From Eucommia ulmoides (lineage: Eukaryota; Streptophyta; Magnoliopsida; Garryales; Eucommiaceae): a stretch of 64,000 nt of DNA. The stretch covers positions 23,166,905 to 23,230,904 of the forward strand of contig CM028335.1 in the NCBI GenBank assembly GCA_016647705.1, given 5' to 3'. The first letter of the stretch is position 1. Every line of letters begins with the position of its first letter. Both the position numbers and the translations under genes were made by a program. This document shows, piece by piece, positions 4,102-64,000 of the stretch. The notes below the pieces were generated by a model. The model made no database searches. It was given only the letters and a program-made list of their open reading frames with translations, and was not told the DNA's origin.

Positions 4102-4640
4102 AACACTTATAGAAAAGCTTACCATTGTAATGATGAGGTAACCACGAGCAAGATGAGAAGTACTAAGTCAAAGCAGTGACATTCTACTACTAGCTAACAA
4201 TGAGGTTCTTATAGGGGAGTCAGAAGAAGTTCGTGCTAACCCTCCACCAGAGGTATGGAGCACTGATTCAAAAATCGATGCCCTTAATGAAAAAATATAA
4301 AAAATGGTGGACATGATAAAGTGGATGGCATAGCAATCGCCAAGAACGCACCACAACCCCCTACCGTTAACAAGGGTTTGGGGAAAGAAGCAAAGTCTCC
4401 ATGGTCTGTAGACTGACCATCCCAAGGGGAAATCACTGTCCAGGGAGATACTAGCAACCAACCACCGGAAAAAAAAAAAACCTATTGAAATGAACTGGAG
4501 ACCATTGATTCACATCAGCAACCTAGAAGCATGAAGGAGAGAGGTCTACCCCTGGATGAACTGGATACACTATTGAAATGAACTGAGATATCATTTACCT
4601 CAAACATCTTGACTATACTACTCTCGAAAGAGTTTGACCC
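4102..4640 (+). pseudogene. Element A gag leader and N-terminus, degenerate
   Basis: This is the stretch between the primer site and the insertion of element B. No long frame is open in either direction. By position it should hold the 5' leader and the N-terminal part of gag, whose core resumes at 10602 after B. Only position supports the assignment, apart from the fact that the GACCC at its end is repeated just after B. Confidence 0.5.
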
Positions 4641-5056
4641 TGATAGGTGTAAATTACCTATCTATTTCTAATCCGAACGTTGTTCGTTTTTGAGTATGTT
4701 TAGTACGTTTTAATATGTTTTTATGTGTTTTTGTATAAATCATGTGTTTGAGGTGAAAAGGTATGTAAACGGATAAAAAACGATCAAATCGGATCAATAA
4801 CGGTGGAAAAAAGGCGAAAATGTGCAAAGCTGGTACAGGTGTTGTAACTTCAAGGCTATTTTGGACTATGATGCAATCAGATTTTGGAAACACACAAAAC
4901 ATGGACGTTGTATATCTTTTTCTTATATTTCCATATGTTTTTGAATCACCTCAATCGAAGTTTGGATGAAGAAGTTACAGTCAAAACAAAATGCAAACCT
5001 GCAGTTTTTCGGCCTAGGCAGAAATCTGGCAGAAAGCTAACCAACCTACCTGCAAT

Positions 5057-5076
5057 AACTTCTCCTAGGAGAAGTT
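5057..5076. repeat. Perfect 20-bp palindrome in element B U3
   Basis: AACTTCTCCTAGGAGAAGTT is self-complementary over all 20 bases. The matching place in the 3' LTR (9370-9383) reads TTCGCCTAGGCGAA, self-complementary over 14 bases. A pair of bases symmetrical about the centre differs between the two LTRs, so each copy is still a palindrome. Confidence 0.9.
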
Positions 5077-5586
5077 TCTAGTTTATATATTATTTTAGAT
5101 ATTTTAGGATATTTTGAGCCTAATTTTCTCCTCATATCATCTCCATTAGGCCAAGAGACCCCTTAGAACATATGGAGGGATATTTTGCGAGGTTTTGGGA
5201 GTGCTCAACTAATTCTGAAGGAGAAGATCACGTTCCGATAAAGGAGAAGCGATCTCGAAGCGTTTTTATCGACAAATCTACGGACTAGGCTAAGTTTCTT
5301 TCGTTTCTTCTTTTATTTCTTAACTTCGGTAGTTAGTTGAGCATGTTTAGCTTTGTTTTCATTGTATAACCGGCTATGGCCATGAGCTAAATGGTTTTTG
5401 TCTAGGGATTAAAATATATTTATAAAAGTGTTGTTTTGTTGAGTTTGTGTTTGGTTAGGGGTTGTTCTTCGTTATTTTGATTGTGTTTGCCATATTGTTT
5501 GTTTATTATGCTTAGATTTACATATCGAGAATACGGGGTTTGACAAATTTCGAATTCGGACTAGAATAAACAAATGCCACGATTTT

Positions 5587-5980
5587 ATAACCCGGTCGGG
5601 GTTTGGATTGTGGACAATCAATGACATTGGGGCAAGACTCAAGTGACCTAGGGTCGTTAAGACGTTGAGGGGGACTTCTTTGTTGACTCAAAGTCACGTA
5701 TTTCCTCATCTTACACTCGGGAGAGGTGGCGAGGGAGTTTTAGAATGGAGATTGTCGATAGGGTAAATACAAGGCGACGAACCAATAACCCGAGAGGGAG
5801 TTGGATTGTGTGCAATCAATGACGTTGGGGCGGGACTCACGTGACCTAGGGTCGTTAAGACGTTGAGGGAGACTTCTTCATTGACATAAAGTCGCGTTAT
5901 ATCCCTCGTCTTACACTCGGGAGAGGTGGCGAGGGAGTTTACGAATTGAGATTGTCGGATAAGTCGAACACCGTTAATGT
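5587..5980 (+). repeat. Two 198-bp tandem units inside the element B LTR
   Basis: Unit one starts ATAACCCGGTCGGGG (5587) and unit two ATAACCCGAGAGGGAG (5785). Both continue through CAATCAATGAC, GTGACCTAGGGTCGTTAAGACG and ACTCGGGAGAGGTGGCGAGGG. The same pair is at 9903 and 10101 in the 3' LTR with the same 198-bp period, and in the reversed copies at 48.1, 49.1 and 63.3 kb. The duplication therefore predates spread of the family. Confidence 0.85.
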
Positions 5981-6290
5981 AAACTAAAATGAGACCGAAC
6001 ACGTTTTTGTAAACAAAAGTTAATCCCTAGGAAATACTTTCCCTAAACATTTCATAGTAATATTAGTATAGTTAATTTAATTAGATTAATTAACTTAGTA
6101 TTAGTATAATTAATTTTATTCAATTTATCTTCGCCTAGATAAAATTAGGTTATGATAAACGCGGTATTCAATTATAGTCAAAACCAATCCCTGTGGACAC
6201 GATAACCCTAACTCTCCCGATCTATACTAAAACTTGACCTCGTATACTTGTGAGTGAAAGTAGTGGCATATTTACGTGCTACCAAGTTTT

Positions 6291-6308
6291 TGGCGCCGTT
6301 GCCGGGGA
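6291..6308 (+). promoter_or_regulatory. Primer-binding site of element B (tRNA-Asp type)
   Basis: TGGCGCCGTTGCCGGGGA begins six bases after the LTR and is the standard primer site of Athila-lineage elements. A mutated version (TGGCACCATTGCCGGGGA) follows the LTR of element D at 23162. Confidence 0.85.
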
Positions 6309-6430
6309 TTGTGTTTTTGGTTATTATTGACATTGTGAGTAAATAACTAGAGTTTACTTTAGGCATTTCTTTTGTGTATAATTTTTTTCTTTGTAGTTTT
6401 TGTTTTTCTTTTCTCACAGGGTGCTTGAAG

Positions 6431-7350
6431 ATGGTAGATCAATAGGTACTCTTGTAGTTCTTTCAATGGGATTCCGAGCTATTTTACTGTGCTTGGGATC
6501 GATATAAGGATTTGCTACTCCGGTTTCTGAATCACGGATTCTTGTGGAAGTGTTAACTACTGAACTTCCTCGATAAGTTACAAGCCCAGCCAGAATGTGG
6601 GTTGAAAGAGAAAACGGTACCACCTCTTTCGACCAACTAACCGCGGACGAAGCCCATTGGATGTTGGAAGACATGGAGGCCTTTGATTATCAGAGTTGCA
6701 ATTCTACGGTGCCATGAATTGACACCCCGGACCAATACGTTGAGTCTTCCCCTGGCCTGGAAGAAATACTCGCTGATTTTATTAAGGAGACTCAGACATT
6801 TTGGAGGGAGACGAATGACCTGCTAAATGAGCACGAGGATCGTCTCGACAACATTGAGACAATTTGCACTAAAATCGATGCGACCATAATGTTTTTACAG
6901 ACGCACATTGGTTAGCTTATCTGCTTGATTGAGGCCGAGTCAGACGTGGTGGCACCCGGAGATTCACAAGTCGAATCCTATTGCGAAAGCCACTACGAGA
7001 AACCGGAGACAAGCGAGAGGTACTGGGATGAGATCGACGGAGATTCATACATTAAGTATTGTGAATTTTCACCGTTCGAATTCCAGTTGGTGGTGTCGCA
7101 CTCGATCGAAGACGATCATATTTATGAGGATCCGATGTGGCTCAATGATCCTTCGCCGCCACTAGCAACATTCTTTTATGCTCACCAAGTACATGAGCTG
7201 GTGAGGTATGTCGTTGAAAGCTCGAGCTATACATTGCCACATCTCGCCAGTCTTGAGGGCGTACTGAACCAAGACGCGTATGTGGTGTTGTACGACACTT
7301 ACTACAGTTGGAAGCCACTCTTTGACGAGCACTTCGGCGTGTCAGGCTGA
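6431..7350 (+). pseudogene. Athila-like gag of element B, about 306 codons, broken
   Basis: Translation from the ATG at 6431 gives DSELFYCAWDRYKDLLLRF then LNHGF, matching the Athila Gag core (EAWERYKDLL..PHHGF). After a +1 frame change near 6590 it reads ADEAHWMLEDMEAFDYQ (Athila: EEAHELLEEMA..NYQ), then an ETQTFWRETNDLLNEHEDRL-like coiled segment ending THIG-stop-LI (Athila: LETQIGQLA). The last 141 codons (6925-7350) are open, acidic and aromatic, with no known domain. Stops are of the TAG/TGA type expected from C-to-T change. Gag would build the particle that packages this pol-less RNA. Element D keeps the first 45 codons of the same frame. Confidence 0.75.
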
Positions 7351-7360
7351 CGACCATAAA

Positions 7361-7389
7361 CCAAGCGCTTCTTGGGAGGTAACCCAAGG
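7361..7389 (+). other. Conserved post-gag hairpin of Athila-type elements
   Basis: GCGCTTCTTGGGAGGTAACC followed by CAAG contains a perfect stem CTTGGG / CCCAAG (7371-7376 with 7383-7388) around a six-base loop. I recall the phrase GCGCTTxTTGGGAGGCAACCC as common just after the coding region in Athila-lineage elements. It lies 11 bases after the gag stop. Function is unknown to me. Confidence 0.6.
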
Positions 7390-8929
7390 AAGAGAATAAG
7401 TTAGATCCATCATAACCGATTTGATTTGGAGGCGAGATTCTCTCGCCTCCCAGGTACGTGTTCTAAACCCTAGTCTATATTATAATGCTTTATCATGTCA
7501 TTGGGATCGCTGACTAGGTTATTATGGGAATTTCCTGTTTGAGTCGGATGTGATGTATAGTATGTTTTTAGTATATGTCTTAGTTAGTATGTTTTATTGT
7601 TTCTATGTGTGCATGTCTGTTTAGGATAGTTGTTAAGTTATGTGCTAAGTTTTTACATCATCTGGACCATTACCCAATGATGAGTTTGTCCTCTGGTTGT
7701 TTATTGAGGTTGAGCGTAAAACTCATACATGTATGTTCTATGTACTCAACGTTATGTTTTAGTAATAGTTATTATAGATCCTACTTGCACGAGCATGAAA
7801 ACTTATTATATAACCGTCTAATTGATTTGAAAACGATTATCTGTCACCTAAATTCATGATATTAGGGTTTCTAGAACTTGATTTGGGGGAAATTTGAGGC
7901 GAAATCCTAGGCGAGGTAGTTCGGAAGATATGATTTAGGCATTCATTTTCTCGCTTGAGCCTTTTTAAACTAACCTTATTAAATCATTACCCCTCGTTAC
8001 CCTGTCGAAGCCTAATAGCCATTTCAATTCTGAACACTTAACCAATACCACGTGACCGATTAAACTTCTTTCCAAACCTAAATCGCTAAACCAAAGGCAC
8101 AATTTGAGAGAATCAAGTTAGCATTCATTACACTACTTGAAGTGAGCGGTTGAGTTTTGGGCGAACTATTAATTGGTTCGGTATTCGAGTACTCACTTGT
8201 CATTTTTTTGTTCATATTTCACACACCCTTTAAATTGTACAAATCAAATAAGTTTGGGGGTGTATTTGTTAAAAAAAATAAAAAAAATAAAAATAAAATC
8301 AAGTGTACATACTGTTTTTATTTTTTGTTTCCTTTTGATAAGTGAGTACAAAGTTCTTAAAATTATGTTCAGGGTTGTTTCAGTTATATTTATGGGGTTT
8401 CGAGAGTGAAAGAGTGCCAAGTGATGTGCCTTGGGTAATGCCATGTTAACGACGTTAACCCGTTTTCTTTTTCAAATTTACCTTGGCCATTTGTCCTAAA
8501 CTGAACCAAGACCTATTGATATTTTTGAACTTTCGAGCCTACATTAGTGGAGAATAGATCCCGGGTCAAGCCTATGGATTCCCTATACCTTTGGATTTTT
8601 TTCTATCATGCACTTATATGGTGGATAATCCAATCCGATTAACGGACAGTTATATATTTGAGTTTTTAAACACGCATACACACTTTAGCAAGATCTATAA
8701 CGACATTTATTATTATAAATGTTGAAATTCTAGAACATTACATGATGTGTTTTATGCCTGAACTTGATAGGATTGAGGGCCGATGAGGGATATTTCGTTT
8801 GGCCGGTAGATGATACTCAAAACTTGCACATATTTGTTTATCGTGTTTTTCATTTTTAGTTGTTATATTTGCTTTTATTGTATGGGTATTTTGCTCGAGG
8901 ACTAGCAAAATTCCGAGTTTGGGGGTATT
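7390..8929 (+). other. Element B 3' untranslated interior
   Basis: There are 1.5 kb between the post-gag hairpin and the 3' LTR. No reading frame of recognisable origin occurs in any of the six frames; the short frames around 8157-8444 are A/T low-complexity. The region ends in the polypurine tract GAGTTTGGGGG next to the LTR, which primes plus-strand synthesis. An autonomous Athila would have pol in this interval, so this is the site of the missing genes. Confidence 0.65.
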
Positions 8930-10601
8930 TGATAGGTGTAAATTACCTATCTATTTCCAATCCGAACGTTGTTAGTTTTCGAGTATGTTCAGTACGTTTT
9001 AATATGTTTTTATGTGTTGTTTTCTAAATCAGGTGTTTTAGGTGAAAAGGTATGTAAACAGATCAAAAACAATCAAATCGGATCAAGAACGGTGGAAAAA
9101 TGGCAAAAATGTGCAAAGCCGGTACAAGTGTTGTAACTTCAAGGAGATTTTGGACTATGATTCAATCCTATTTTGGAAATATTCAAAACATGGAAGTTGT
9201 ATATATTTTTCTTATCTTTCCATAGGTTTTTGAATCACCTGAATCAGAGTTCGGATGAAGAAGTTACAGTCAAAACAAAATGCAAACCTGCAGTTTTTCG
9301 GCCTAGGCGGAAAATTCTACTGCCTAGGCGAAAATCCGGTAGAAAGTTAACCAACCTACCTACAGTAACTTCGCCTAGGCGAAAACCTCTGCGCTAGTTT
9401 AGATATTATTTTAGATATTTTAGGTATTTTGAGCCTAATTTTCTCCTCCTCTCCTCTCCATTAGGCCAAGAGACCCCTTAGAACATATGAAGGGATATTT
9501 TGAGAGGTTTTGGGAGTGCTCAACCAATTCCGAAGGAGAAGATCGCGTTGCGGTAAAGGAGAAGCGATCCCGAAGCGTTTTTAGCGACAAATCTACGGAC
9601 TAGGCTAAGTTTCTTTCGTTTCTTCTTTTATTTCTTAACTTCGGTAGTTAGTTGAGCATGTTTAGCTTTGTTTTCATTGTATAACTGGATATGGCCATGA
9701 GCTAAATGGGTTTTTGTCTAGGGATTAAAATATATTTATAAAAGTGTTGTTTTGTTGAGTTTGTATTTGGTTAGCGGTTGTTCTTCGTTATTTTGATTGT
9801 GTTTGCCGTATTGTTTGTTTATTATGCTTAGATTTACATATCGAGAATATGGAGTTTGACAAATTCCGGATTCGGACTAGAATAAACAAATGCCACGATT
9901 CTATAACCCGGTCGGGGTTTGGATTGTGGACAATCAATGACGTTGGGGCAAGACTCACGTGACCTAGGGTTGTTAAGACGTTGAGGGAAACTTCTTCATT
10001 GACTCAAAGTCATGTATTCCCTCATCTTACACTCGGGAGAGGTGGTGAGGGAGTTTTAGAACGGAGATTGTCGATAGGGTAAATACAAGGCGACGATCCA
10101 ATAACCCGGGAGAGAGTTGGATTGTGTGCAATTAATGACGTTGGGGTGAGACTCACGTGACCTAGGGTCGTTAAGACGTTGAGGGGTACTTTTTCGTTGA
10201 CACGAAGTCACATTATATCCCTCGTCTTATACTCGGGAGAGGTGGTGAGGGAGTTTATGAACTGAGATTGTCGGATAAGTCGAACACCGTTAATATAAAC
10301 TAAAACGAGACCGAACACGTTTTTTGTAAACAAAAGTTAATCCCTAGGAAATACTTTCCCTAAACATCTCATAGTAATATTAGTATAGCTAATTTAATTA
10401 GATTAATTAACTTAGTATTAGTATAATTAATTTTATTCAATTTATCTTTGCCTAGATAAAATTAGGTCATGATAAATGCGGTATTCAATTATAGTCAAAA
10501 CCAATCCCTGTGAACACGATAACCCTAACTCTCTCGATCTATACTAAAACTTGACCTCGTATACTTGCGACTGAAAGTAGTGGTGTAATTACGCGCTACC
10601 A
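8930..10601 (+). repeat. 3' LTR of element B
   Basis: The LTR is 1672 bp and aligns along its length with 4641-6284. It starts TGATAGGTGTAAATT and ends TTACGCGCTACCA, next to the GACCC duplication. In U3 it keeps three CCTAGG-centred motifs (9299-9310, 9322-9330, 9370-9383), against two in the 5' LTR, which accounts for part of the length difference. The 198-bp tandem pair starts at 9903 and 10101. Confidence 0.88.
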
Positions 10602-11415
10602 GACCCACACAAAGTTTGAGAAGTATGATGGGAAAGAAGACCCTGTGGACTACATCCAACAGTTCAGACATATCATAGCCTTGTATGGAGCAGGTGACTC
10701 TGCGTTGTGCAGAGCTTTTGCTACGATCCTAAAAGGCTCTGCTCTAGAGAGGTTACATAAGCTTCCGCCTAACCTATCTCATCGTTCAAGGACTTTGGGA
10801 AGATGTTCATAAATTGCTTCATAACCTACCAGAGGTTGATGAAGGGACCTGATTATCTACTGGCCTTACGACAAGAGAATGATGAGTCCTTGTGTTAGTA
10901 CATGAATCGATTCAATTAGGAGTTGATGCGTATTGAGGGTTGTGACACTAACTAAACAATTAATGCTTTTACTTCGGGGTTGCGCCATAGTAGATTCCAA
11001 GACTCCCTTACCAAGCATAACTCGAAGAGCATGTCTAAGTTGATGGAGAAATCTAAGCCCTACATGAAACTAGAGGATGTCAAACTTGCGAGAGAAGAAA
11101 ATGAGTCAACCAAAGATCACCCTAAGAAAAGCGAGAAGGACCACAACAAAATAAAGTCTAGCAGCTCAGATAGGCCGAATGATTGTCCCAGAAGTTCAGG
11201 TTCTAAACTGGATGCACGTAAAAAACCAAACCTCCTAGGCCTACAAATGTTAATCTCCAAGATTTTGCCTGAAATACGGTCATCTGAGGTGGTTCAATAG
11301 CCTTCCAAGCAAAATATGAGGACCAACAGAAAGAACAAATCAAAGTATTACGATTTCTGTAAGGACCATGGCCATGTCACAGACGATTGCTGGGAGCTCA
11401 AAAAGGAGATAATGT
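10602..11415 (+). pseudogene. Element A gag, core and C-terminus
   Basis: Directly after element B the frame reads TKFEKYDGKEDPVDYIQQFR, the start of the retrotransposon Gag core of Tat elements (FDGxxDPxxHLxxF). It continues ALCRAFATILKGSALERLHK, and after a frame change LMKGPDYLLALRQENDESL and EGCDTN. A Lys/Ser-rich linker (10980-11300) leads to YYDFCKDHGHVTDDCWELKK. This is the Tat-type knuckle-like motif (YCxxHxxHGHxTxDC) in place of a classic zinc knuckle. Stops occur at CAG- and CAA-type positions. Gag would assemble the particle in the cytoplasm. Confidence 0.8.
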
Positions 11416-15689: not shown

Positions 15690-16430
15690 TTTGGTACTGA
15701 AACCAGATGTAGAATAGCTGAGCAGATCAACTCAGACATGAGTAGAGTAGATCAACTCACTAATTCACAAATAAGCAGAGTAGATCATCTTACTCATAAA
15801 ACACTTAGCATAGGAAAACTAAGTGTGAAACAAAAGTGAAGAGGGCAGGTTAGCTCACTCACTGAATATAAATAACTGAGTTGATCAGCTCACTCATTCA
15901 CAAATGAGCAGAGCAGATCAACTTACTCATGAAACACTTAGCATGTAAAAACTAAGTGTAAAACAAAAGTGAGGAGGGCAGGTCAGCTCACTCACTAATT
16001 ATAAATAGCTGAGCATATCAGCTGAGACTTGAGTAGAGTAGATAAACTTACTCATAAAAATACTTAGCATGTAAAAATAAGTATGAAACAAAAGTGAGAA
16101 GAGCAAGTCAGCTTACTCACTACGTATAATTAATTGAGTAGATCAGCTCAGACAGAGTAGAACAGATCAACTCACTCATTCACAAATGAACAGAGCAGAT
16201 TAGCTGACTCACAGAGCAAAGAAAATAAGCTAACTTATTCACAAATGAGCAGAAGGTTAACTCACTCATAGCATAGCAGATCAGCTCACTTGCAAGGCAA
16301 AGTTGATCATCTCGCTTAGCAAAATTGATCAGCTCAGTCACAGAGCAGAGCTAATCAGTTCACCAATTACAACATTTAGTGTTCAAAACTAATTGTGAAC
16401 ATAGCAGACTTATTAGTCACCAAATAAATT
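15690..16430 (+). repeat. Tandem repeats after pol in element A
   Basis: A unit of about 130 bp recurs at roughly 15815, 15947 and 16073, marked by AACTAAGTGTGAAACAAAAG followed by a short GAGGGCAGGTxAGCTCACTCA block. Short words (GAGCAGATCAxCTCACTCA) are spread through the rest to 16330. No gene lies here. Element C has tandem repeats of different sequence in the same place. Tat elements such as Ogre are known to carry tandem repeats between pol and the 3' LTR. Confidence 0.75.
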
Positions 16431-19437: not shown

Positions 19438-21047
19438 CTAGAGGACCAACTCTAAAATCTTTGTTTTTTTTTTTTTTTTTTTCTTCTTGTTCTTCTCCCA
19501 GAGCTTGTCGTGCTTCTCCTTTATGGAATTGGCATACTCTTTATGGAAGTGCAAATTAGCAGACAACTCACAAGTCTTCCTCTCTGACTTCTTCAAATGG
19601 CCTCTAAGTTTATGGAGTTGTGAGATAGCATGGAAGTGCGCCGCCTCTATAGCACAGAAGACGACGCAGGTGGTAGCGCATAGATACGCCACTATTTTCA
19701 CTGCAAGTGTACGGGTCAAGTTTTAATACAGATTGGAAAGAGTAGGCGTTTTCGTATCCACAAGGATTGGTTGAGATTATCGTCGAGTACTGCAATTATC
19801 ATAACCTAACTTTATTTAGGTAATCAAAATATGTTTTGTTTATAATATAAATACTAATCTAAAGTACTAATTAAACTAATTATACTATAATACTAATATT
19901 ACGATGTTTAGGGGAATGAATTATCTAGGGATTAACTTTGTTTATAAAAATGTGTTTGGTTTTGTTTAGTTATCAATAACGGTATTTAACCTATCCGACA
20001 ATTCTTGTATCATAAACTCATTTACTCCCTCTCCAGAGTGACAAGTGAATGAATATGTGATTTCGTGTTAATGCTAACGTCCCTCTCTAGCATTTTTTAG
20101 AACACATATTCACATGAGTCTTGCCCCAACATCATGGATTGTATACTTTCTAACACCCTCCCGGGTCGTTAGATAGTCGCGTTGTGTTTAACCCTAGTCT
20201 GAATTCGGGGTTACCTCTCTCGAGTGTCAAACCCTAATTTCTTAATATATCTAAACAAACATATAAACATGAAAAAATGGTAAACACGATCGAATAGTGG
20301 AGAACAACCGTTAAAGAAACACAATTCAAACAAACGACATTTTCATAAATTACATTAATCTCATAGATAATTCATGTTTAGCCAATGGCCATAACTATAT
20401 ATACAATAAAAAACGAGCTAAACATGCTCAAACAATAAACCAAAGTTAAGAAATGAAGAGAGAAATGAAGGAACTTAGCCGTATTCTGAAGATCTGCTGC
20501 TAAAACCGCTCTGAGATCGTTTCTCATTTTTCGCTTTGTGTTCTTCTCCTTTGGATTTGGTTGAGCACTCCCCAAAAATCTCTCTATTATATTCTAAATG
20601 TCTAGGAGTTCTCTTGACTGAAATAGAGAGGAGGAAGAAGATAAGAAGGGCCAAAATATCTAAAAAAATACTTTACAGCTATAGGGGTCACCGCTGCTAC
20701 GGTGGGCATATCGGCAGGGTCACCGCTGCAACGATAGCTTTGATCGCTATAGCGGTAGAATAGTAGGCAAACTCTCTGTACTTTGACCGCCGTGGCAGTG
20801 GTCCATTCAGTCAACTCTCTGTATTTTCACCGCTTCGAGGGTGCATGCAAGCTCATTTTCACCCCAAACACCTAATTTGTACAAAAATAAAATAAAAGCT
20901 AATTAAAACATAATAAAACACAATAAAAATATTCGAAAACTACCAAAATTGTCTTGGAAATATATAGACAAATTACCCCTATCAACAGGCATCCTCCAAG
21001 GCTTTGGGACGAGAATGCTTGTGAGTAAGGGTCTTTGCCATTGTCAT
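19438..21047 (-). pseudogene. Element A antisense ORF 2, split by a solo LTR
   Basis: The frame starts at 21047 with MTMAKTLTHKHSRPKALEDA. It meets the solo LTR at 20984 and resumes at 19670 as VVFCAIEAAHFHAISQL, then a charged, probably coiled-coil stretch (LKKSERKTCELSANLHFHKE) and a Lys-rich end. If the LTR and one 5-bp duplication are ignored, the frame continues without a stop for about 97 codons. I recognise no domain. A TATTTAAA box on the minus strand (21249-21256) lies about 200 bp upstream. It is downstream of the larger antisense gene of A and may be a separate transcript or its far 3' exon. Confidence 0.5.
19671..20984 (-). mobile_element. B-family solo LTR in element A
   Basis: In minus orientation it starts TGATAGGGGTAATTTG (20984) and ends GCTACCA (19671), with the family phrases AACTTGACCCGTACAC and a TATCCACAAGGATTGG complement. 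Flanks are GCAGG (19666-19670) and ACAGG (20985-20989), a target duplication with one change. It is 1314 bp, shorter than the B LTRs, and belongs to a diverged subfamily. Its U3 holds CCGCTATAGCGG-type inverted motifs (20670-20840) where B has CCTAGG palindromes. Confidence 0.8.
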
Positions 21048-21256: not shown

Positions 21257-23161
21257 GCCAAACCAAGGAAGAGAGTAACGCCAAAGAAGTGTAAATGAAA
21301 CGTCAAAAAATTTGCATTTATAAGTGAATGACGTGTGCTGACAGAATACATACTGTAATCATGACATTGTAATTCCCAAATTAATTGGCGGCTATTGTTT
21401 TAAAATAGTTCATAATTACAAACACGATCATTATTACAAAATAAAAATTACAGGTATTAAAAACTAAAAAGACAGATTGTCAAATCAAAGGACGACACTC
21501 TAGTTAGCAACATTTGGTTGGCTAGAGATCTACAATCCAGCAGGATTAGAGGTAACATCACCAGGCAAAGCATAAGCTTGATCTGAGCTTGGGACGAGTT
21601 GACCAGAAGGATTTGGATTTGAGCTCATTGTGGGCACCTCAGCTACTGATATAGCAATTTCTAATGGAAGCCCTTCACTTTCAGCACATAGGATTACAAA
21701 TAAATGGAAAAAATGATGTAAAATACGTGTAAATGTTGTAACTTCAAAGTCAAGTTTGACCATGATTTAATTTGAGCGCGCTGTAGTGCGAAATTGAGTG
21801 CGCTGCAGCGCTCTCCCATCAGAGGGTTTATGGCCTTAGTGTGCTGCAGTACGCTAAAATGCACACTATAGTACCGTCTAACGCATCTGAACCCTATTTT
21901 AGGGAATTTAAGCTTATTTTGATGGAAAAAGAAGGGAGAGACGAAGGAAGAACAGAGGGGAGGCAATTTTGGGAGCAAGATAAGACAATTTTGGACAAGA
22001 AAACACCGGATAATGGCATTTTGATATGAGATCGATGAAGAAAATATCATTGGTGGCACGTGGGATTGAAGATTTGGAGCCCAAACCCACAATAAGCATT
22101 TTCTATTCCCTTCTCTTTTCCCAATCTTGATTTAACTTTGTATTTGTAATAGTGTGTTGAACATGTTTACAATTATGAATTTATTGGAAATATTGGTTAT
22201 GGATTTGTCTATATTGAGCTAATATCTGGATCTAGGGTTTGATGTAGTCTCGTTTGAACCATGTTGTGAATATTTTGTAAATTATTAGATTTAATTCCAT
22301 TTTATGCATCCCTTAGGCCTAATGTGTTTGATTCATGAAGTCAATGAGTTAGATGATTTTAGGTTGCGAATTTTATACTCGGGTGAGGTTGAATTCGTAA
22401 CCGGAATTAGGAGTGCATAGTTTAGGTTGTTGTGAGTGTGAGAGGAAATCAACACCTAATTAATCTAATTGGGAATTTAGGATTTGTGAAATCGGGAGGT
22501 GATCAAGTTCTAGATTTACCATCTAGGTTTTCCATTCAATTGTGTTTGCCTTCTTCATGCTTCCATTATATGCTCACATACGGTATTTTGGTTAAATTGA
22601 GAACTTGGGATTTGACACTCGGGAGAGGTAATCTTGGGTTCGGACTTAGGTTAAACACAACTAAGATTTAATAGATCGAGAGATATTTAGAGCTTGCGTA
22701 ATCTATAAGGTCGGGTATAGAGAATATTTTCACCTAAATACAGGATAGAGATTTTGATATTGAAGTGAGTATATATTCTCTCACTTGACGTTCGGGAGAG
22801 GTAGTGAGAGAGAAATAGCACGAGGACCTTAATTATTGAATGAACGGAATTAACTAATAATTACTATATAGGAGAACACGTGAATAACGAGATGAAATCA
22901 AGCCCCTAGAACATTTGGGCATAGATAATCTATATTTTATTTTATTTTTGTATTTATATTTAATTTAGTTGTTTTAGATTTATTAATTTAAAAACCCCAA
23001 AATTCGATCGCCTAAATAAACTTAAGTTACAATAATTGCAGTACTTAACGACAATTTAAACCAATCCATGTGGATACAACAACCCTACTCTTCCTATACT
23101 ATTAAAACTTGACCTGTACACTTACGGTATCGTAGTGACAAATAGTTCGCTATCAAGTTTT

Positions 23162-23179
23162 TGGCACCATTGCCGGGGA
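23162..23179 (+). promoter_or_regulatory. Primer-binding site of element D
   Basis: TGGCACCATTGCCGGGGA differs from the B site by two G-to-A or C-to-T changes and sits seven bases after the LTR end. Confidence 0.75.
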
Positions 23180-23294
23180 TTGGTTTTTTAGATTGTTGTT
23201 AATATTATAAATAAGTAACTTCATTTTAATTTAGGCATTTTTTTCCTTCTAATTTTTGTTTTTGAGTTTTGTTTGTATTGCGAGGTACTTGAAG

Positions 23295-23439
23295 ATGTTT
23301 GATCAACATGTTCTCTTGCAATTTTATCAACAAGATTCTGAGCCATTTTATTGTGCTTGGGATTGATATAAGGAGTTCCTCATTTAGTTTCCCAATCATG
23401 GTTTCCTGAAGGAGTGTCAACTACTCAACTTCCTTGACC
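23295..23439 (+). pseudogene. Gag N-terminal fragment of element D
   Basis: The frame reads MFDQHVLLQFYQQDSEPFYC followed by AWD-stop-YKEF and NHGFLKECQLLNFLD. It aligns with 6431-6570 of element B and so confirms that B's interrupted start is real gag. Two stops are present. The frame ends at the CTTGACC deletion junction. Confidence 0.7.
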
Positions 23440-34894: not shown

Positions 34895-36010
34895 GACATG
34901 AATGCGTTAACGGTTGTTCAAACTTTTTCTGTCTAAACTAGACTGTTAACGTTAACGGTAGTATTTGCGTGATTTTCACACATGTTTATCCCCAGACAAC
35001 ATGAAACGCGTTAACGTTAACACATAAGAGTTTTGTCATTTGTTTGATTTTCTTGAGTGATTGTTTTTGGGATCTGGTTGGGATATGATTGGTGTTGGAG
35101 GTGGAGTTGGGTGTTTATTTTCACGTTAACATTAGTATTTCTGTGTGATTTTTCCACATATGTTTTTCTGTATAACATTAAATGCGATAACGTTAATACA
35201 GAGAAAGACAAAAAAAAAGAAGTGAATTTAATGTTAACATAGAGTTTTGTGTGATTTTTGCACATATGTGTTTTTCTGGACAACATGAATGTGTTAACGT
35301 TAATATAAAAGAGACCCAAACAAATGTGCATTTTTAACGTTAACGTCAGGGTTTTTCTTTTTTGATCTCTCACATATTGGGTTCCAGATAACATGAATGA
35401 GTTAACGTTAATACATGAGATCTCTAGGAAAATATGTGTTAACGTTAATGCAAACCATAATACTTTGACATTTTAACACATAGAAGCCCAAAAAATGTTC
35501 ATTAATGTTAATGCACACCCAACTAAAAAAAAAAACAAATATTACAAGCAGTGAGTTAACGTTTTAACACAGAAGATAATAAAAAAATGTGCATTAATGT
35601 TAATGCACACCCAACCTAAACACACATAACGTTAACATAAATATTCCAGGAAAATACATTAAACATAGGCAGGGACATGTGCATTAACATTATCTCATAG
35701 AAAAATCCCAAAAAAAAAATATACATATAACGTTAACACACACAAAACAAATGAATAAGATGTGTTGACGTAAACATACACAAAATAAGCTAAATATGCA
35801 AGGAAACAAATGTCATGTAAAAAAATATGAAAATACGTTAACATTAATGTACAAACAAAATGAGTTAACGCACACAAAATGAGTTTAACGTTAACACACT
35901 CAAAAATGAGTTAATGCACACCAAAAAAATAAAAAAACACACAAGGGAGGGTGTATTGCTGAAAATGAGGACTGAGTTACGATTAACGTTATGTGTGCAT
36001 ATTGTGGTCT
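34895..36010. repeat. Degenerate array rich in GTTAACGTTAAC
   Basis: The ten-base palindrome TTAACGTTAA or a one-base variant recurs more than twenty times. In the first half a longer unit is visible four times (about 34965, 35130, 35244, 35356): GTGTGATTTTT, CACATATGT, CTGGACAACATGAATG, then GTTAACGTTAATA. Unit length varies from about 110 to 165 bp. In the second half the unit breaks into GCATTAATGTTAATGCACAC-type pieces. There is no coding capacity. I do not recognise the family. Confidence 0.75.
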
Positions 36011-37500: not shown

Positions 37501-39410
37501 GACGTTAACGTTTACGTAACAGAAATATGACCAGTAAAGAAAATAAGGCCCCGTTTGGTTAGTGTTCCCAACTCAACCCAACTCAAAATTTTTGGGATTG
37601 ATGTTTGGGAATGCATATGACAAATACAAAATTTAATCCAATCCAACCTAAAAAATGAGAATTGATTCTCAAAATTCTTAAAAAATGAGAAACAATTTTT
37701 TTTTTTTTGTGCCCAACTCAACCCATTCTAGATCAAGGACACGCTCAGAATTACCAAAATTGTTTAATGAGATCTTCTCTTCAACTTTGTTAAGCTCATT
37801 TCATGATCATTTCTTCCTTCGTCCTTCTATTCTTCGTGTGTCTTCATGTTCTCCATCTCTAGCGTCGACATCTCCATCGCTACTGTGATCTTCTCGTTCT
37901 TCATCGCTCCCACGGTGGTCTTCTTTTCGTCTTTATCTTCGCTTTCGTCTTCATTGCTTCCATGGTTATCCTATTTCTTCGTCAATGAAATAGATTTTAT
38001 CTTCATCAATGAGCTAGGGTTCGTTAGTCCCATCGAGCTAGGCTTCGTTGCTCCATTCGTCAACGACATCTTCATTGCTCCCATCGTCGTCTTTGTGTTT
38101 GTCAATGAGTTAGGGTGTTGATTCAAGCCTGAATGTTTCGTATGTACTCGGATCCAGCAAGTGTTAATGACGAAGGTATTCAACTATTAAAGATCGTGAA
38201 TTTTCAGGTTAATCGCGTGTTTAGTTTGTTGGTTTTCAAATTTGCCAAGTAAAGTTTGTAATTCAATCAGGGTAAAGTTTGTAACTGAACTGATTTTTGT
38301 TCTTCATGATCCATATCTCCTTCTTGCTTTCTATTTTGGAAAGAAAAGAGGAAATTCTCCTTCTTGATTTAAGATTTGGTTGCTAAAATCAATTTCCCCA
38401 AATGTTCAATTTGAATCTGGCTTGTATAGTATTGATTTTTGTTGTTGTCCATGTATATACCTTATAAATGTCGTTCCAGTTGTTGATTCAGTAATGATTA
38501 ATGAAATTGTATTCTGGTTATGAGGATTTCTTACACTGGAAAAAGGAAAGATTTGTTGAAATTGTTTGTTCGCTGACATAATCCGTATTAATGCTCCATG
38601 ATGATTAACTTTATGCTTCAATTCAACTAAATAATGTAGCCTGAAAAGGAAGAAGAAGAAGCTAGCATAATTGGAGTTATCTTGAAAGTCTTATTGTGTA
38701 TATGCATCATCAAGTAGGTTTCGATTTTGATTTCGTTACTGAAATCGATCACGATATCAATTTTAATTTTATTGCTAAAATCGATTTAGGGTTTGGTTAT
38801 TGATTTTGTTTTAGCCTTCGTTCTTGATTTTGGTTTAGGGTTCGTTCTTGATTTCTCAATGATTTCTTGGCGATTTTAGTATTTAAAACACTTGATGTTC
38901 AACTGGGTTTTGCATTTTGAAGTACGATTCTTGTGAAATTGGTGTTTTCTTAGCACAGAACTGATTTCTGATATCAAAGTTTGTTTATCTTTGAGCTTGA
39001 GCTGGTATATCTATTTATTTTCGATTTTTTAGGGTTGTTTCATCTATTTTTGGCTGAATTTCATCGAATAATTGGTTCTCTTGAGTAGGGGGTTTGGTTG
39101 CTGAAATCAATTCTAGGATAATATCATTATTAAACGCGATTTTATTCCCAGCACAAAAAAAAAAAAAAAAAATTGTTGTTACCAAACGCGATTCTGTTCA
39201 CAATAGGGAACAAAATTCTCAACTCAACTTAACCCAATCCATCCCAGTTGGGTTGAGAAAAGTGAGAACACTAACCAAACGCCACCTAAATAAACGTTTA
39301 CGTAATAGAAACAAAAGAAATAGCCATGATAGAATGTGTTAACATTAACGTAATAGAAACATAAGAAGTAGTATTGACTGAATGTGTTAACGTTAACGTA
39401 ACAAAAACAG
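37501..39410. repeat. 48-bp minisatellite interrupted by a DNA element
   Basis: Outside the Harbinger-like insertion, the sequence on the left (ACGTTTACGTAACAGAAATA) and right (ACGTTTACGTAATAGAAACA) is the same unit. The right side then repeats it twice: ACGTAATAGAAACAxAAGAA, a variable part, and GAATGTGTTAACxTTA, with a period near 48 bp. The units hold the same TTAACGTTAA palindrome as the array at 35 kb. Confidence 0.7.
37547..39286. mobile_element. PIF/Harbinger-like non-autonomous DNA transposon
   Basis: The ends GGCCCCGTTTGGTTAGTG and CACTAACCAAACGCCACC are inverted repeats (18 of the outer 21 bases match). They are flanked by TAA (37544-37546) and TAA (39287-39289), the 3-bp duplication of PIF/Harbinger elements. 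Subterminal CTCAACCCAACTC words also occur in inverted form. At 1740 bp it encodes no DDE transposase I can see. The frame at 37846-38121 is a repetitive FVNELGF-type text with no domain, and a poly-A run lies at about 39155-39172. Confidence 0.75.
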
Positions 39411-40660
39411 TGTTTTAAACTCTAAATAAAAACTTACCCGGATATTCAAACAACTAATTGAATTGATGTAGATCGAGGCTAGAGTTTGACTTTATGCCCT
39501 TAAAGCAGATTCGTGCCCCCCCCCCCCCCATTGGTGCTAATAGTTGAATAGATGTCTACCTCTAGGGTACAACGATCTTCAAGTTTTTGGTACAAGTACT
39601 TGAAACCAAAAATTTTGACGAACTAAACTTCTACTTGAACTCTCACAAAATTCTAAATATTCTGTGCTGTGGTGGTGATATGAAGTGATAATGTTGTGTA
39701 TGAGATGAAATGAAATGAATAAGAAGTCTTCTATTTATAGAAGATCAAAAGCCACCATTGAATGGATGCAACTTTGGAAAGACGTCTGTTTGCGTTAACG
39801 TTAACATGAACCGTCACCTAATGAATCTTCAAATCTGTTCATTGGTGCTAATTTAAAATTAACTGTTAAGCAGTTAATTAACTGCTTAACTACCACTAAT
39901 TAAACTTTAAATTGTTCTAGTGGGTCAAGATCCGACCTGGATCCGACTCAAACTCGACCCATATTCAGCTCGAACCCGATCCAAATATGGATCGGATTAA
40001 CCGGACCCAAACTCGACTTGAACCCTAACCTGCCCCGATTCGAGTTTGAAGGTTTGGTGGTTGGTAGCTTGCTTTTGTTCTCAACTTATAATTCGATACA
40101 AGTTTAAGTTTTTCCTCCACAATTAATGTGGGGCAACTACATTTTACAACTCAAGTTCTCATTTCCATGTAATGTGGGATAATTACACCTTACAACTCAA
40201 GTTCTCCCTTCTCAACCAATTTGGGATAACTTATCCATTATATTTTCAACCAATCTCATATGGGTTCTTTATATTAAAATCTCATTCAAAACTTAATTAT
40301 TTTTTACATATAGATATACTACGTCGATCCTCAAACGACAAGGAATGCAACGGAATAATAATCCCATTAAATTAATCGATGGGTCTCATTTTAATTAATT
40401 AATTAAAGTAGTATAAAATTCTAATGCTATGATCGTTTACTTCACAATTTGCCAAGAGATAATAATTCCACCACAAGTAAAAACATTCTCGATTTGTGAT
40501 CAAGCTTTATGAGGTTCGAAAGATACCCATATCAACATATTCAATTAATTATGTTTTAGATCCAATTGGATAAAATAGACTGAAATTAGTTGTTCCACGA
40601 AGATTGTGTAATTCTATTCCATACAAGAAATAAAACCTTTTACAACATAGGTATATACAG
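39411..40660 (-). mobile_element. Copia-like LTR, probably solo
   Basis: In minus orientation there is a U3-like AT-rich part, a TATA box (TATAAATA, 39732-39739) followed by GAAGACTTCTTATTC, then a U5-like part ending near GTTTAAAACA (39411). The 5' edge is probably near 40660 (TGACTGTATATACC). No coding text is attached. I could not find a convincing target duplication, so the boundaries are approximate. A poly-C run (39517-39529) and one GTTAACGTTAAC (39793-39804) lie inside. Confidence 0.45.
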
Positions 40661-47771: not shown

Positions 47772-50473
47772 TGGTAGGGCGTGAAATACACCGCTACTTA
47801 CTTTCGCAAGTATACGAGGTCTAAGTTTTAGTATAGTGTGATCGTTAAGATCGAGTTATCGTATCCACAGGGATTGGTGTCGTTACTATCGAATACCGCG
47901 TTTGTCGTGACCTAATTTTATCTAGGTGAAAAACAAATGTATTTAATTAATTAAACTAATACTAATATAACCTAAATTAACTACACTAATATGCTAATAT
48001 ATTTTAGGGTGAAGAATCGCCTAGGGATTAACGTATTTACAAATACGTGTTCGATCTCGATTTACTTACGTTTATGATGTTCGATCTATTTGACAACCTC
48101 GGTATGTAAACTCCACCGCCACCTCTCCCGGGTGTAAGACGGGGGAATACATGACTTCGAGTCAACGTAAAAGTCCCCCACAATGTCTTAATGACCCTAG
48201 GTCACAATACTCTCGCCCAGCATCATTGATTGCACACAATCCAACTCCTTCCCGGGTTATTGGATCGTCGCGTTGTATTTACGCTATCGATAATCTCAGT
48301 TCTAAAACTCCCTCGCCACCTCTCCTGAGTGTAAGACGATGGATATAACGCAAATTCGAATCAATGAAAAAGTCCCCCTCAACGTCTTAATGACCCTAGG
48401 TAGCGTGTGTCTTGCCCCACATCATCGATTGTCCACGATTCAAACCCCGACCGGGTTATAGAATCGTGGCGTTTGTTTACCCTAATTCGAATAAGGGGTT
48501 TGTTAAAACCCCATATTCTCCATTTATCTAACTAAGCATGATAAACAAATAATACGATAAATACAATCAAACTACGAAGAACATTCATAAACGAAACACC
48601 GAAATCATCCAAACAACGTATTTATAAATTATATGTTAATCCCTACTACAATCCATATTTAACTTGGGGCCATAGACGCATATACAATGAAATAATGAGC
48701 TAAATATGCTCACATGATCCTAAGATAAAGAAATAAGGAAAAACAATCGAAGAACTTATCATCGTCTGAAGATAAACCACTAAGAACGCTCAACGATCGA
48801 TTCGTCGTCTTCTCCACTTCGGTAGTATAGTGTGATCGTGAAAGATCGGGTTATCGTATCCATAGGGATTGGTGTCGTTACTATCGAATACCGTGTTTGT
48901 CGTGACCTAATTTTATCTAGGCGAAAAACAAATGTATTTAATTAATTAAACTAATATTAATATAACCTAAATTAACTACAGTAATATGCTAATAGGTTTT
49001 AGGGTCAAGAATTTCCTAGGGATTAACGTGTTTACAAATACGTGTTCGATCTTGATTTACTCACGTTTACGGTGTTCGACCTATTTGACAATCTCGGTAC
49101 GTAAACTCCACCGCCACCTCTTCCGAGTGTAAGGCGGGAGAATACATGACTTCGAGTCAATGAAGAAGTCTCCCTCAATGTCTTAACGACCCTAGGTCAC
49201 GTGAGTCTCGCCCAGCATCATTGATTGCACACAATCCAACTCCCTCCCAGGTTATTGGATCGTTGCGTTGTATTTACCCTATCGACAATCTCCGTTCTAA
49301 AACTACATCGCCACCTCTCCCGAGTGCAAGATGAGAGATATAATGCAACTTTGAGCCAACGAAAAAGTCCCCCTCAACGTCTTAACGACCCTAGGTAGCG
49401 TGTGTCTTGCCCCATGTCATCGATTGTCCACGATTCAAACCCCAACCGGGTTATAGAATCGTGGCGTTTGTTTACCCTAATCCGAATCCGGGGTTTGTCA
49501 ATACCCTATATTCTCCATTTATCTAACTAATCATGATAAACAAACAATACGATAAATACAATCAAACTACGAAAAACAATCACAAGCGAAACACCGAAAT
49601 CATCCAAACAACGTATTTATAAATATGGTGTTAATCTCTACTACAATCCATATTTAACTCGAGGCTATAGCCGCATATACAATAAAATAACGAGCTAAAC
49701 ATGCTCACGTGATCCTAAGATAAAAAAATAAGGAAAAACAATCGAAGAACTTAGCCTCGTCCGAAGATAAACCGCTAAGAATGCTCTACGATTGATTCGT
49801 CGTCTTCTTCACTTTGGGATGTGAGCTCCACCTCTAAAACTACTAAAGATACCCTTATATATAGCCTAGGGGGCTCAAAAAGCCATGGGGGCAAGAGAAT
49901 CACCGGCCAAGGGGGAGGAGATGGGGTATTTATAGCCAAAATATCTCAAAAATATCTAAAAATATCTCAAGACTGTGCAGTGCAAATCTGTCTAGGCAGT
50001 GGATTCTTCGCCTAGGCGGAGTTAGGTCGGTTCGGTCGGATCTCCTAGGCGGTGAAGTAGGCGGTGGACTGGGAGAACATTTTGTTGGATTTTTGCTTAG
50101 GCAAACAACTGTCAGTAGCCTATCTGCGTCTTTTGCTGAATTTCCGCCTAAGCGATAGAATCTTCGTCTAGGCAGTCGTCCGTCAGTAACATTTTTCTCT
50201 TTCTCAGCTTTTTCACCACTTAGGCGGTGGTCTAGACGCCTAAGCGATGGGCCTATTTTATTTTTCAACCTCCGAGCTTGTTTATCCACCGTAACTTCGA
50301 ACCGCTTTGGTTCGATCTCATCGTTTTAGCTCTAGTTTCCAATCTTTTTTGCCCCACACACCTGATTTATACAAAAAGATAAAAACTAATTAAAACATAA
50401 TAAAAATAACTATAAACATATTCAAAAACTAACAAATTCAGATTGGAAATAGATAGATTTTTCACACCTATCA
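47772..50473 (-). mobile_element. B-family LTR insertion with 1-kb internal duplication
   Basis: In minus orientation it starts TGATAGGTGTGAAAAAT (50473) and ends GCCCTACCA (47772). It is flanked by perfect CCCTC duplications (47767-47771, 50474-50478). Length is 2702 bp against about 1650 for other LTRs because a segment is present twice in direct orientation: 47829-48819 and 48823-49815, period about 995 bp. Both copies hold the 198-bp pair and the GGGATTGGTGTCG block. There is no gag or primer site, so this is a solo LTR that duplicated internally. U3 (49985-50260) carries several CGCCTAGGCG and CGCCTAAGCG motifs. Confidence 0.85.
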
Positions 50474-62989: not shown

Positions 62990-64000
62990 ATCCTTCACGT
63001 ATATGACTACTTGCAAGTGTACGAGGTCAAAGTTTTAGTATAGTGTGATCGTGAAAGATCGGGTTATCGTATCCACAGGGATTGGTGTCGTTACTATCGA
63101 ATACCACGTTTGTCGTGACCTAACTTTATCTAGGCGAAAAACAAATGTATTTAATTAATTAAACTAATACTAACATATCCTAAATTAACTACACTAATAT
63201 ACTAATATGTTTTAGGGTAAAGAATTGCCTAGGGATTAACATGTTTACAAATACATGTTCGATTTCGATTTACTCACGTTTATGGTGTTCGACTTATTTG
63301 ATAACCTCGGTACGTAAACTCCACCGCCACCTTTCCTAAGTGTAAGATGGGGGAATACATGATTTCGATTCAACGAAGAAGTCCCCCTCAATGTCTTAAC
63401 GACCCTAGGTCACGTGAGTCTCGCCCAACGTCATTGATTGCACATAGTCCAACTCTCTCTCGGGTTATTGGATCGTACGTTGAATTTACCCTATCGACAA
63501 TCTCCGTTCTAAAACTCCTTTGCCACCTCTCCCGAGTGTAAGACGGGGGATATAACGCAACTTCAAGTCAATGAAGAAGTCCCCCTCAACGTCTTAACGA
63601 CCCTAGGTTGCGTGAGTCTTGCCCCAACGTCATCGATTGTCCATGATTCAAACCCCAACCAGGTAATAGAATCGTGGTGTTTGTTTACCCTAATTTGAAT
63701 CCGGGGTTTGTCAAAATCCTGTATTCTCCATTTATCAATCTAGGCATGATAAACAAAAAATACGATAAATACAATCAAACTACGAAGAACAATCACAAAC
63801 GAAACACCAAAATCATCCAAATAACGTATTTATAAATTATATGTTAATCCCTATACAATCCATGTTTAGCTATGGCCTTAGCCACATTTACAATGAAACA
63901 ACAAGAAAAACATTCTCACATGATCCTAATATAAATAAATAAGGAAAAAACAATTGAAGAACTTAGCCTCGTTCGAAGATAAACCGCTAAGAACGCTCAA
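62990..64000 (-). mobile_element. B-family LTR, running off the window end
   Basis: From GACTACTTGCAAGTGTACGA onward the sequence matches the minus-oriented LTR at 47772-50473 block for block, including both 198-bp units (ACCTCTCCCGAGTGTAAGAC near 63523, with a mutated copy near 63330) and the GATTGGTGTCGTTACTATCG block. The exact left edge is blurred because the usual TGGTAG end is not visible. U3 would lie beyond 64000. It interrupts the MULE-like frame. Confidence 0.8.

Follow-up and report, generated by a model that had tools for sequence, protein, structure and literature searches.

CGC-GCG palindrome arrays recurring at a common U3 position in LTR retrotransposon copies of Eucommia ulmoides

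The LTRs of Sireviruses, which are Ty1/copia elements, contain palindromic RM boxes; in 12 of 13 cases these carry the signature CGG-CCG, and their remainder is element-specific (Bousios et al. 2010; PMC2829016). According to the cited passages of that paper, the RMs occupy the upper half of the LTR, begin 200-400 bp into it, stand shortly before the TATA box and vary among copies; each element has at least eight of them, together with CpG islands and polypurine tracts of the form AGGGGGAG. The authors described the motif as Sirevirus-specific and absent from the classic elements that they examined. In maize, the palindrome regions of Sireviruses are described in later work of the same group, in the portion cited here, as highly variable, rapidly evolving small-RNA hotspots (PMC5311732), and silencing pressure on such palindromes would have a precedent there. 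Elements of the Tnt1 superfamily have mostly common sequence and differ in U3, where boxes bind inducible factors (cited passages of PMC1838419 and PMC3316501). For the variable CpG islands of Del elements, a link to escape from host control has been proposed in the cited part of PMC4029996.

Here we describe a 64-kb stretch of Eucommia ulmoides DNA (64,000 nucleotides; hereafter, the window) in which a CGC-GCG palindrome array recurs at one U3 position. This is a known kind of array, yet it occurs in another class of element and shows core change within the family. Our quantitative results cover five U3 stretches in the window, which represent four lineages: those of the 5' and 3' LTRs of element B (B5 and B3), of the solo LTRs S1 and S2, and of element D. 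One LTR on a plant-like contig (L005) served as the outside comparison. We propose, with a probability of about 0.58, that the U3 stretch is a promoter-proximal palindrome array for a dimeric host factor.

LTR copies in the window and their class

The elements that concern us are the following.

4641..10601, + strand: element B, non-autonomous LTR retrotransposon (sequence reading, self-BLAST)
6291..6308, + strand: primer binding site of B, TGGCGCCGTTGCCGGGGA
8915..8926, + strand: candidate polypurine tract of B, GAGTTTGGGGGT, before the 3' LTR
19671..20984, - strand: S1, solo LTR (sequence reading, BLAST to the B LTR)
21690..23155, + strand: 5' LTR of element D, 5'-truncated, start approximate (sequence reading, BLAST)
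47772..50473, - strand: S2, solo LTR (self-BLAST, sequence reading)
63008..64000, - strand: S3, partial LTR of the same family, R/U5 side only, U3 outside the window (self-BLAST)

Element B consists of two LTRs (4641-6284 and 8930-10601), 91.7% identical by self-BLAST, around an interior of 2645 bp, and is flanked by the target-site duplication GACCC at 4636-4640 and 10602-10606. We found no pol in B, judging by ORF lengths and a profile scan of one ORF; the sole interior ORF of at least 110 aa (6916-7350, 144 aa) had no Pfam match. Paired LTRs, a 5-bp target-site duplication, a primer binding site and a polypurine tract, without pol, are the marks of a non-autonomous LTR element. We take TGGCGCCGTTGCCGGGGA to be complementary to the 3' terminus of plant tRNA-Asp. 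Primer sites of the tRNA-Asp type are associated with plant Ty3-type LTR retrotransposons (Metaviridae), and B has such a site in TGGCGCCGTTGCCGGGGA at 6291; from the primer site only, we infer that B is of the plant Ty3 type.

S1 is bordered by GCAGG and ACAGG, which agree at four of five positions, and S2 has GAGGG on both sides and contains a 995-bp internal tandem duplication. The LTR of D is followed by the primer site TTTTTGGCACCATTGCCGGGGA, and its end together with the primer-site region is 74% identical to B (BLAST, 6131-6573 to 23008-23437). The earlier note, made from the letters of this DNA, had given all these LTRs a common backbone. We found this to be so for B, S1 and S2, and weakly so for D, which is ~50% identical to B and S2 and 56% identical to S1 in global alignments downstream of U3.

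Several further observations concern the bodies of these and other elements. The tandem pair of S2 (47772-49817) comprises two copies of a 995-bp R/U5 segment, 90.7% alike, and S3 (63008-64000) matches the same unit; duplication and match possibly represent a first step from LTR to satellite. Self-BLAST also revealed that B, S2 and S3 carry in the LTR body a duplicated segment of ~170-200 bp (ACTCGGGAGAGGTGGCGAGGGAGT-like; 5573-5957, 9889-10273, 48092-49479 and 63300-63692). In a separate element, E, an LTR pair at 40810-41582 and 54459-55215 encloses coding sequence that is RT/RNase H-like (45050-45886); by eye, its U3 contains GGAGGTCGG...CCTCC-like dyads upstream of CCTATAAATA.

Palindrome sites in U3, their localisation and spacing

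The palindrome stretches, the individual sites of the two solo LTRs and the candidate promoter element are listed here.

4985..5085, + strand: B5 U3 palindrome stretch (motif scan, reading)
9285..9400, + strand: B3 U3 palindrome stretch (motif scan, reading)
20660..20850, - strand: S1 U3 palindrome stretch (motif scan)
20829-20842, 20786-20799, 20743-20756, 20722-20735, 20690-20703 and 20675-20688, - strand: S1 sites
21774..21860, + strand: D U3 palindrome stretch (motif scan, reading)
49975..50270, - strand: S2 U3 palindrome array (motif scan)
50237-50246, 50229-50238 (2-bp overlap with the first), 50217-50226, 50165-50174 and 50145-50154, - strand: first five S2 sites
50094-50103, 50042-50051, 50009-50018 (perfect) and 49989-49998, - strand: last four S2 sites
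49928..49934, - strand: candidate TATA box of S2, TATAAAT, ~55 bp downstream of the last palindrome

The four LTR types with U3 in the window have a GC-richer, repeat-dense stretch at a similar place, as the earlier note had proposed, and B3, S1 and S2 even have a common left flank, ATTCTAY, at one site. In the four complete LTRs the stretch starts at an offset of 135-356 bp, and its GC content is 0.42-0.50 versus 0.33-0.39 elsewhere in the same LTR. An AT-rich block follows downstream; in B, S1 and S2 it contains GATATTTT-like repeats. A place before the presumed promoter was borne out as well. Apart from the candidate box of S2, B5 has TATATAT downstream of its palindromes; within the 165 bp examined, a TATA-like box was absent from B3, S1 and D.

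Site scans confirmed that CGC/GCG arms are common to the LTR types while the cores differ. The sites have the form CGC-NNNN-GCG, with the core CTAG in B and S2, TATA and TGCA-like cores in S1, and TGCA in D; a single core per type had been supposed, and S1 departs from this, its cores being a mixture of CTATAG and TTGCAG-like. B5 has two sites, 5011-5020 (GGCCTAGGCA) and 5062-5071 (CTCCTAGGAG), of which the latter sits within a perfect 20-mer palindrome (5057-5076). Three CCTAGG-centred sites are present in B3 (9300-9309, 9321-9330 and 9372-9381), the third contained in a perfect 14-mer (9370-9383). With a tolerance of up to 5 mismatches in 14, S1 yielded six ACCGC..GCGGT-type sites, one with a perfect CGCTATAGCG at 20745-20754 and five decayed. 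At 6 mismatches in 16, and with a fourth, overlapping row set aside, D yielded three sites (21776-21791, 21798-21813 and 21839-21854), namely a perfect GCGCTGCAGCGC at 21800-21811 and two decayed copies. S2 is the richest, with nine sites within three mismatches of CGCCTAGGCG between 49989 and 50246. The palindromes named beforehand were present in B, S1, S2 and D, for the most part as stated; CCGCTATAGCGG is not literally there, as its outer pair is T/G and its perfect part is 10 bp. Relative to CGCCTAGGCG, the S2 sites show 14 transitions, each of them C-to-T or G-to-A, along with 2 transversions, a pattern to be expected of decaying methylated DNA.

We compared these sites with shuffled sequence. 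The exact form, CGC and GCG around a palindromic four-base core, occurs at four sites in 64 kb (9372, 20745, 21801 and 50009), all of them in the U3 stretches, with each LTR type contributing one; in 200 dinucleotide shuffles made block by block, the mean was 0.10 in the window (maximum 1) and 0.005 in the stretches. When any core was allowed, CGC-NNNN-GCG occurred six times, 6 of 6 in the stretches, in a total that is itself ordinary (shuffles averaged 2.48 and reached 7 at most). When one mismatch to any of the 16 palindromic forms was tolerated, there were 13 sites, with 10 inside the 810 bp of U3 stretches, versus means of 4.6 in the window and 0.30 in the stretches from 10 shuffles. All seven window sites within one mismatch of CGCCTAGGCG fall in the U3 of B3 and S2 (shuffle mean 0.2). 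At two mismatches the localisation to U3 blurs: CGCCTAGGCG has 22 sites, 11 outside the stretches (shuffle mean 5.3), CGCTGCAGCG has nine, four outside (4.2), and CGCTATAGCG has 10, six outside, with no excess over the shuffle mean of 8.2. The motif was picked after these sites had been viewed, and the motif statistics are therefore somewhat inflated; that four diverged LTR types agree is a stronger argument than the counts.

Generic measures of palindromy gave a different picture. Perfect-dyad cover was marginal in S2, where it was equalled by 5 of 100 shuffles, and ordinary in B5, B3, D and S1, where 17, 44, 50 and 100 of 100 shuffles reached it; it was not raised in either LTR of element E (40810-41582 and 54459-55215), used as controls, and TRF on one of these found no tandem array. 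An unbiased best-palindrome scan of 1275 windows placed the S2 stretch tied first, with B, S1 and D unremarkable among many windows with three matches. The best repeated 10-mer palindrome of each stretch was reached by 0 (S2), 1 (B3), 3 (D), 8 (S1) and 113 (B5) of 200 shuffles; CGCCTAGGCG itself came out as the top word in S2 and B5 only. When imperfect palindromes were counted in a sliding frame across the window, the maximum fell in AT-rich DNA; the count stood at 3 in each of 4876-5125 and 9251-9500 (reached by 4 and 3 of 200 shuffles, respectively). Inverted-repeat density against shuffles, the check proposed in the earlier note, was thus not raised within the window except marginally in S2, and we dropped generic density as a test since most LTRs do not rise above shuffles. 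Because generic palindrome density is not raised and the exact motif is enriched, the signal is a recurring motif.

These results also bear on whether GC-rich stretches were simply picked out by eye. The ordinary generic tests of B, S1 and D and the choice of motif after the fact are what such an accident would produce, but the localisation of the motif (4/4 exact, 10/13 near and 7/7 within one mismatch of CGCCTAGGCG) and the nine sites of S2 are not, and we regard chance as extremely improbable.

Other repeats were noted in passing. The palindrome TTAACGTTAA is dense at 34946-35992 and recurs at 37505 and 39339-39804; 20 sites with at most one mismatch, 16 of them in ~1 kb, compare with 5.3 expected in the window. 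This cluster perhaps consists of the subterminal repeats of a DNA transposon, and the search made around it found no clean terminal inverted repeats. Tandem arrays lie at 59860-61205 (AT-rich, 304-bp units, 4.4 copies) and at 15745-16179 (125-133 bp units, with repeated GATCAGCTCACTC-like dyads by eye); scan window 16101-16400, which overlaps the latter, ties with S2 in the palindrome scan.

Successive sites are 20, 52, 20, 51, 52, 33 and 20 bp apart in S2, 21 and 51 bp in B3, 43, 43, 21, 32 and 15 bp in S1, and 22 and 41 bp in D, and each LTR type has a pair 20-22 bp apart. B5, whose one spacing is 51 bp, has no such partner, having lost it through a 21-bp gap relative to B3. With duplicates collapsed, and with the overlapping S2 site (50229-50238), the overlapping D and S1 rows and B5 left out, the spacings fall preferentially close to multiples of 10.5 bp (R=0.67, P ~0.016 versus uniform); as duplications and site choice are non-independent, we treat this helical phasing as suggestive only. 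Such spacings would lean weakly toward protein binding over a hairpin. S2 and B3 have a 72-bp unit in common; the S2 array consists in part of this repeat, which is homologous to B. Aligned to B3 and to S2 unit 1, S2 unit 2 scores above 500 of 500 shuffles; S2 unit 1 aligned to B3 does not score above all 500.

Folding scores were mixed, and the hairpin as sole cause was dropped for that reason. B3, D and one half of S1 fold beyond shuffles (z of -3.12, -2.84 and -2.43), one S2 piece and B5 do so more weakly (-1.84 and -1.78), and other pieces fold no better than shuffles (+1.27 for the second half of S1, -1.16 and -0.30 in S2). The better-folded pieces would suit a purely mutational origin, in which a GC-rich U3 minisatellite acquires and keeps palindromes by template switching during replication, at imperfectly paired hairpins (quasipalindrome correction), and by slippage, without a bound protein. 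The poorly folded pieces do not suit it, and by itself this origin explains neither the recurrence of CGC arms in four diverged LTR types nor the near-helical spacing and the place before the promoter; we consider it rather unlikely. We think still less of a role in RNA, in which hairpins in a U3 transcript would give rise to small RNAs, make the stretch a silencing hotspot and favour change as escape. Some site pairs fold with each other (DNA parameters), and the LTR palindromes of maize Sireviruses are, in the cited passages, small-RNA mapping hotspots in highly variable regions (PMC5311732). However, the stems are short, three of eight pieces are not clearly better folded than shuffles, and the C-to-T and G-to-A differences of S2 (14 of 16) are explained as well by decay of methylated DNA; this role is quite improbable.

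Cores, arms and the LTR pair of element B

A tree of the backbone separates {B, S2/S3} from {S1, D} with support 0.998, D standing on a long branch (50-56% identity to the others). CTAG cores (B and S2) fall on one side and TATA/TGCA cores (S1 and D) on the other, and descent thus explains the cores. Modular exchange, as put forward in the earlier note, found no backing here: among four lineages, which give little power, cores follow the backbone split, and the expected core clades unlike the backbone tree did not appear within the window, where core types agree with the tree. Swapping of whole palindrome cassettes between subfamilies, by recombination or conversion, has a parallel in crapaud, whose copies can pair LTRs of different U3 subfamilies, read as conversion in the cited part of PMC10787394, and the divergence of B5 from B3 does peak in the palindrome stretch. 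We saw no sign of it between types in the window and, at the low power of four lineages, the agreement of core type with the split leaves it very improbable. At the site with the left flank ATTCTAY, the core is CTAG-type in B3 and S2 and TATA in S1; given the common flank, the site is plausibly homologous, with its core altered on both sides.

The two arms of a site tend to differ together. Within single sites, arms match in 88 of 115 pairs versus 79.6 after permutation within LTR type (P=0.003), for sites that had been picked by closeness to a palindrome. S2 and B together gave P=0.018, and the single sets S2 (0.12), S1 (0.11) and D (0.33) were not significant. Compensatory change within S2 alone was accordingly not retained (P=0.12).

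Element B offers a case in which such change can be followed. The two LTRs of a retrotransposon are identical at insertion. B5 and B3 now have 112 differences in 1643 aligned bases, and the most diverged 75-bp bin, 5016-5090, is the palindrome stretch, with 13 substitutions (10 in the next most diverged bin) plus indels of 21 bp and 6 bp; of the supposed quick change of this segment, the B pair is suggestive. Where B3 reads TTCGCCTAGGCGAA, B5 reads AACTTCTCCTAGGAGAAGTT, and a perfect 20-bp palindrome in B5 stands against 7 of 10 pairs in B3. Two inner differences are symmetric, and three further ones complete the 20-bp palindrome. Five random substitutions from B3 would give the B5 palindrome with P=4e-5; from B5, two random substitutions would leave the inner 14-mer perfect with P=0.025. 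As the B3 form is closer to S2, B5 is probably the derived one.

That these symmetric differences keep the palindrome perfect suggests arm templating or conversion. Template switching can give rise to stems of this kind and fix them (cited passages of PMC8794818), and at an imperfect palindrome it can produce the B5 change in one step after a first mutation. The purely mutational origin considered above gains from this, from the improbability of the symmetric change under random substitution and from the concentration of differences in the palindrome stretch of once-identical LTRs, but conversion from another copy accounts for the B5 change equally well. In B, a palindrome in LTRs that were once identical now differs on both arms and yet is perfect, which makes it testable how dimer-type regulatory sites change without loss of symmetry.

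A proposed array for a dimeric factor, compared with known systems

On the reading that we favour, in which the U3 stretch serves a dimeric host factor as a promoter-proximal array, the working unit would be CGC-NNNN-GCG, 10-16 bp with flanks. This unit and its spacer would have been amplified as a minisatellite upstream of the AT-rich block, with a TATA box in one copy. The CGC half-sites would most likely be bound by a dimeric transcription factor of the host, either an activator or a repressor; adjacent dimers would be separated by two, four or five helical turns, and the timing of LTR transcription would depend on the array. LOB-domain proteins are presumably candidate binders, as a lead only. 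A LOB dimer discriminates palindromic DNA, and the LOB domain binds GCGGCG, according to the cited passages of PMC10118128. Point mutations, chiefly C to T in the copy at 50 kb, may alter arms and core together, slippage may gain or lose units, and one arm may be copied onto the other or replaced by conversion between copies. Because such change is linked between arms, cores could drift while dyad symmetry survives, and subfamilies would come to carry new cores at the same position. Silencing may be the pressure that drives this.

A more far-reaching proposal, which we put forward tentatively and think unlikely, is that pre-promoter palindromic operator arrays arose separately in Sireviruses (CGG-CCG) and in tRNA-Asp-primed Ty3-type elements (CGC-GCG), and that in the latter arm-templated template switching drives core change with the dyad kept. 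If this were true, one mutation and one copying event would yield a novel binding site without loss of symmetry, which would open a mutational path to rapid turnover of cis-regulation under silencing or when a dimeric factor is competed for.

For an outside comparison, the primer-site pattern was matched to other contigs. Four matches in viral contigs, all GC-rich, were taken as chance. Two plant-like contigs of 37% GC, L005 and L006, lie inside bacterial assemblies. In L006, which appears to begin inside an LTR so that U3 lies outside the contig, the tRNA-Asp-type primer site precedes an ORF with pieces of Retrotrans_gag and aspartyl protease. The U3 of L005 has a minisatellite (46 bp x 4.2) upstream of CTATAAATAG, in which there is no perfect 12-bp palindrome; as this minisatellite is at the same place, repeat arrays may be widespread at this position, with palindromy as one of their forms. 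The assemblies are those of Streptomyces clavifer and Blastococcus endophyticus; the contigs carry plant-type LTR retrotransposon sequence, which together with 37% GC makes them look like contamination.

Among the matches listed, mainly of freely readable literature, none reported such arrays in Ty3 elements, and for the literal motif nothing relevant appeared among the matches listed. Of the systems that we compared, as far as the cited passages describe them, crapaud of Podospora is like the present case in its U3-specific subfamilies over one LTR backbone and unlike it in being fungal, with no palindromes mentioned there (PMC10787394). The 5' CpG islands of Del LTRs are likewise low-conservation, GC-rich segments before a promoter, but they are defined by CpG content, and no word starting with palindrom- is present in that paper's text (PMC4029996). 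Tnt1 differs in belonging to Ty1/copia, and no palindrome series with constant arms and variable cores is described in the cited parts of PMC1838419 and PMC3316501.

Sireviruses are closer. As in the Sirevirus RMs, as far as the cited text describes them, there are several dyad sites in the upper LTR with a constant trinucleotide signature and variable middle and flanks; the repeated palindromic sites are weakest in D (three) and B5 (two). Unlike those of Sireviruses, the sites here are CGC-GCG, number 2-9 per LTR and come with no CpG excess. Copy number is below the Sirevirus figure of at least eight except in S2 (nine), and a canonical TATA box lies downstream only in S2. The CGG..CCG signature is absent from 5 of 5 stretches; CGC..GCG is found in four (B3, S2, S1 and D, not B5), and S1 has one CCG..CGG. 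CpG observed/expected is 0.23-1.09 in the stretches, and D alone has a stretch with a value above the remainder of its LTR (0.99 vs 0.83); a Sirevirus-like CpG island built from the motifs is thus not seen, and a CpG-island reading, judged by this ratio rather than an island caller, was dropped. In B, the element tested, no AGGGGGAG polypurine tract occurs in the interior even with one mismatch, and in place of the AT/TG attachment site there is ...GGTATT/TGATAGG, that is, TT/TG. Polypurine tract, attachment site, signature and CpG content rule out B as a Sirevirus; it also differs from these Ty1/copia elements, as they are described in the cited passages, in its tRNA-Asp-type primer site and in that no pol was found. 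Variable LTR palindromes in a regulatory region are found here as in maize Sireviruses; the small-RNA hotspot is a feature reported, in the cited text, for the maize elements.

The array described here is real, and it looks like a CGC-GCG counterpart of the Sirevirus architecture, in elements with what appears to be a tRNA-Asp-type primer site. If this is borne out genome-wide, palindromic promoter arrays would reach beyond Sireviruses and would probably be a convergent feature of plant retrotransposons.
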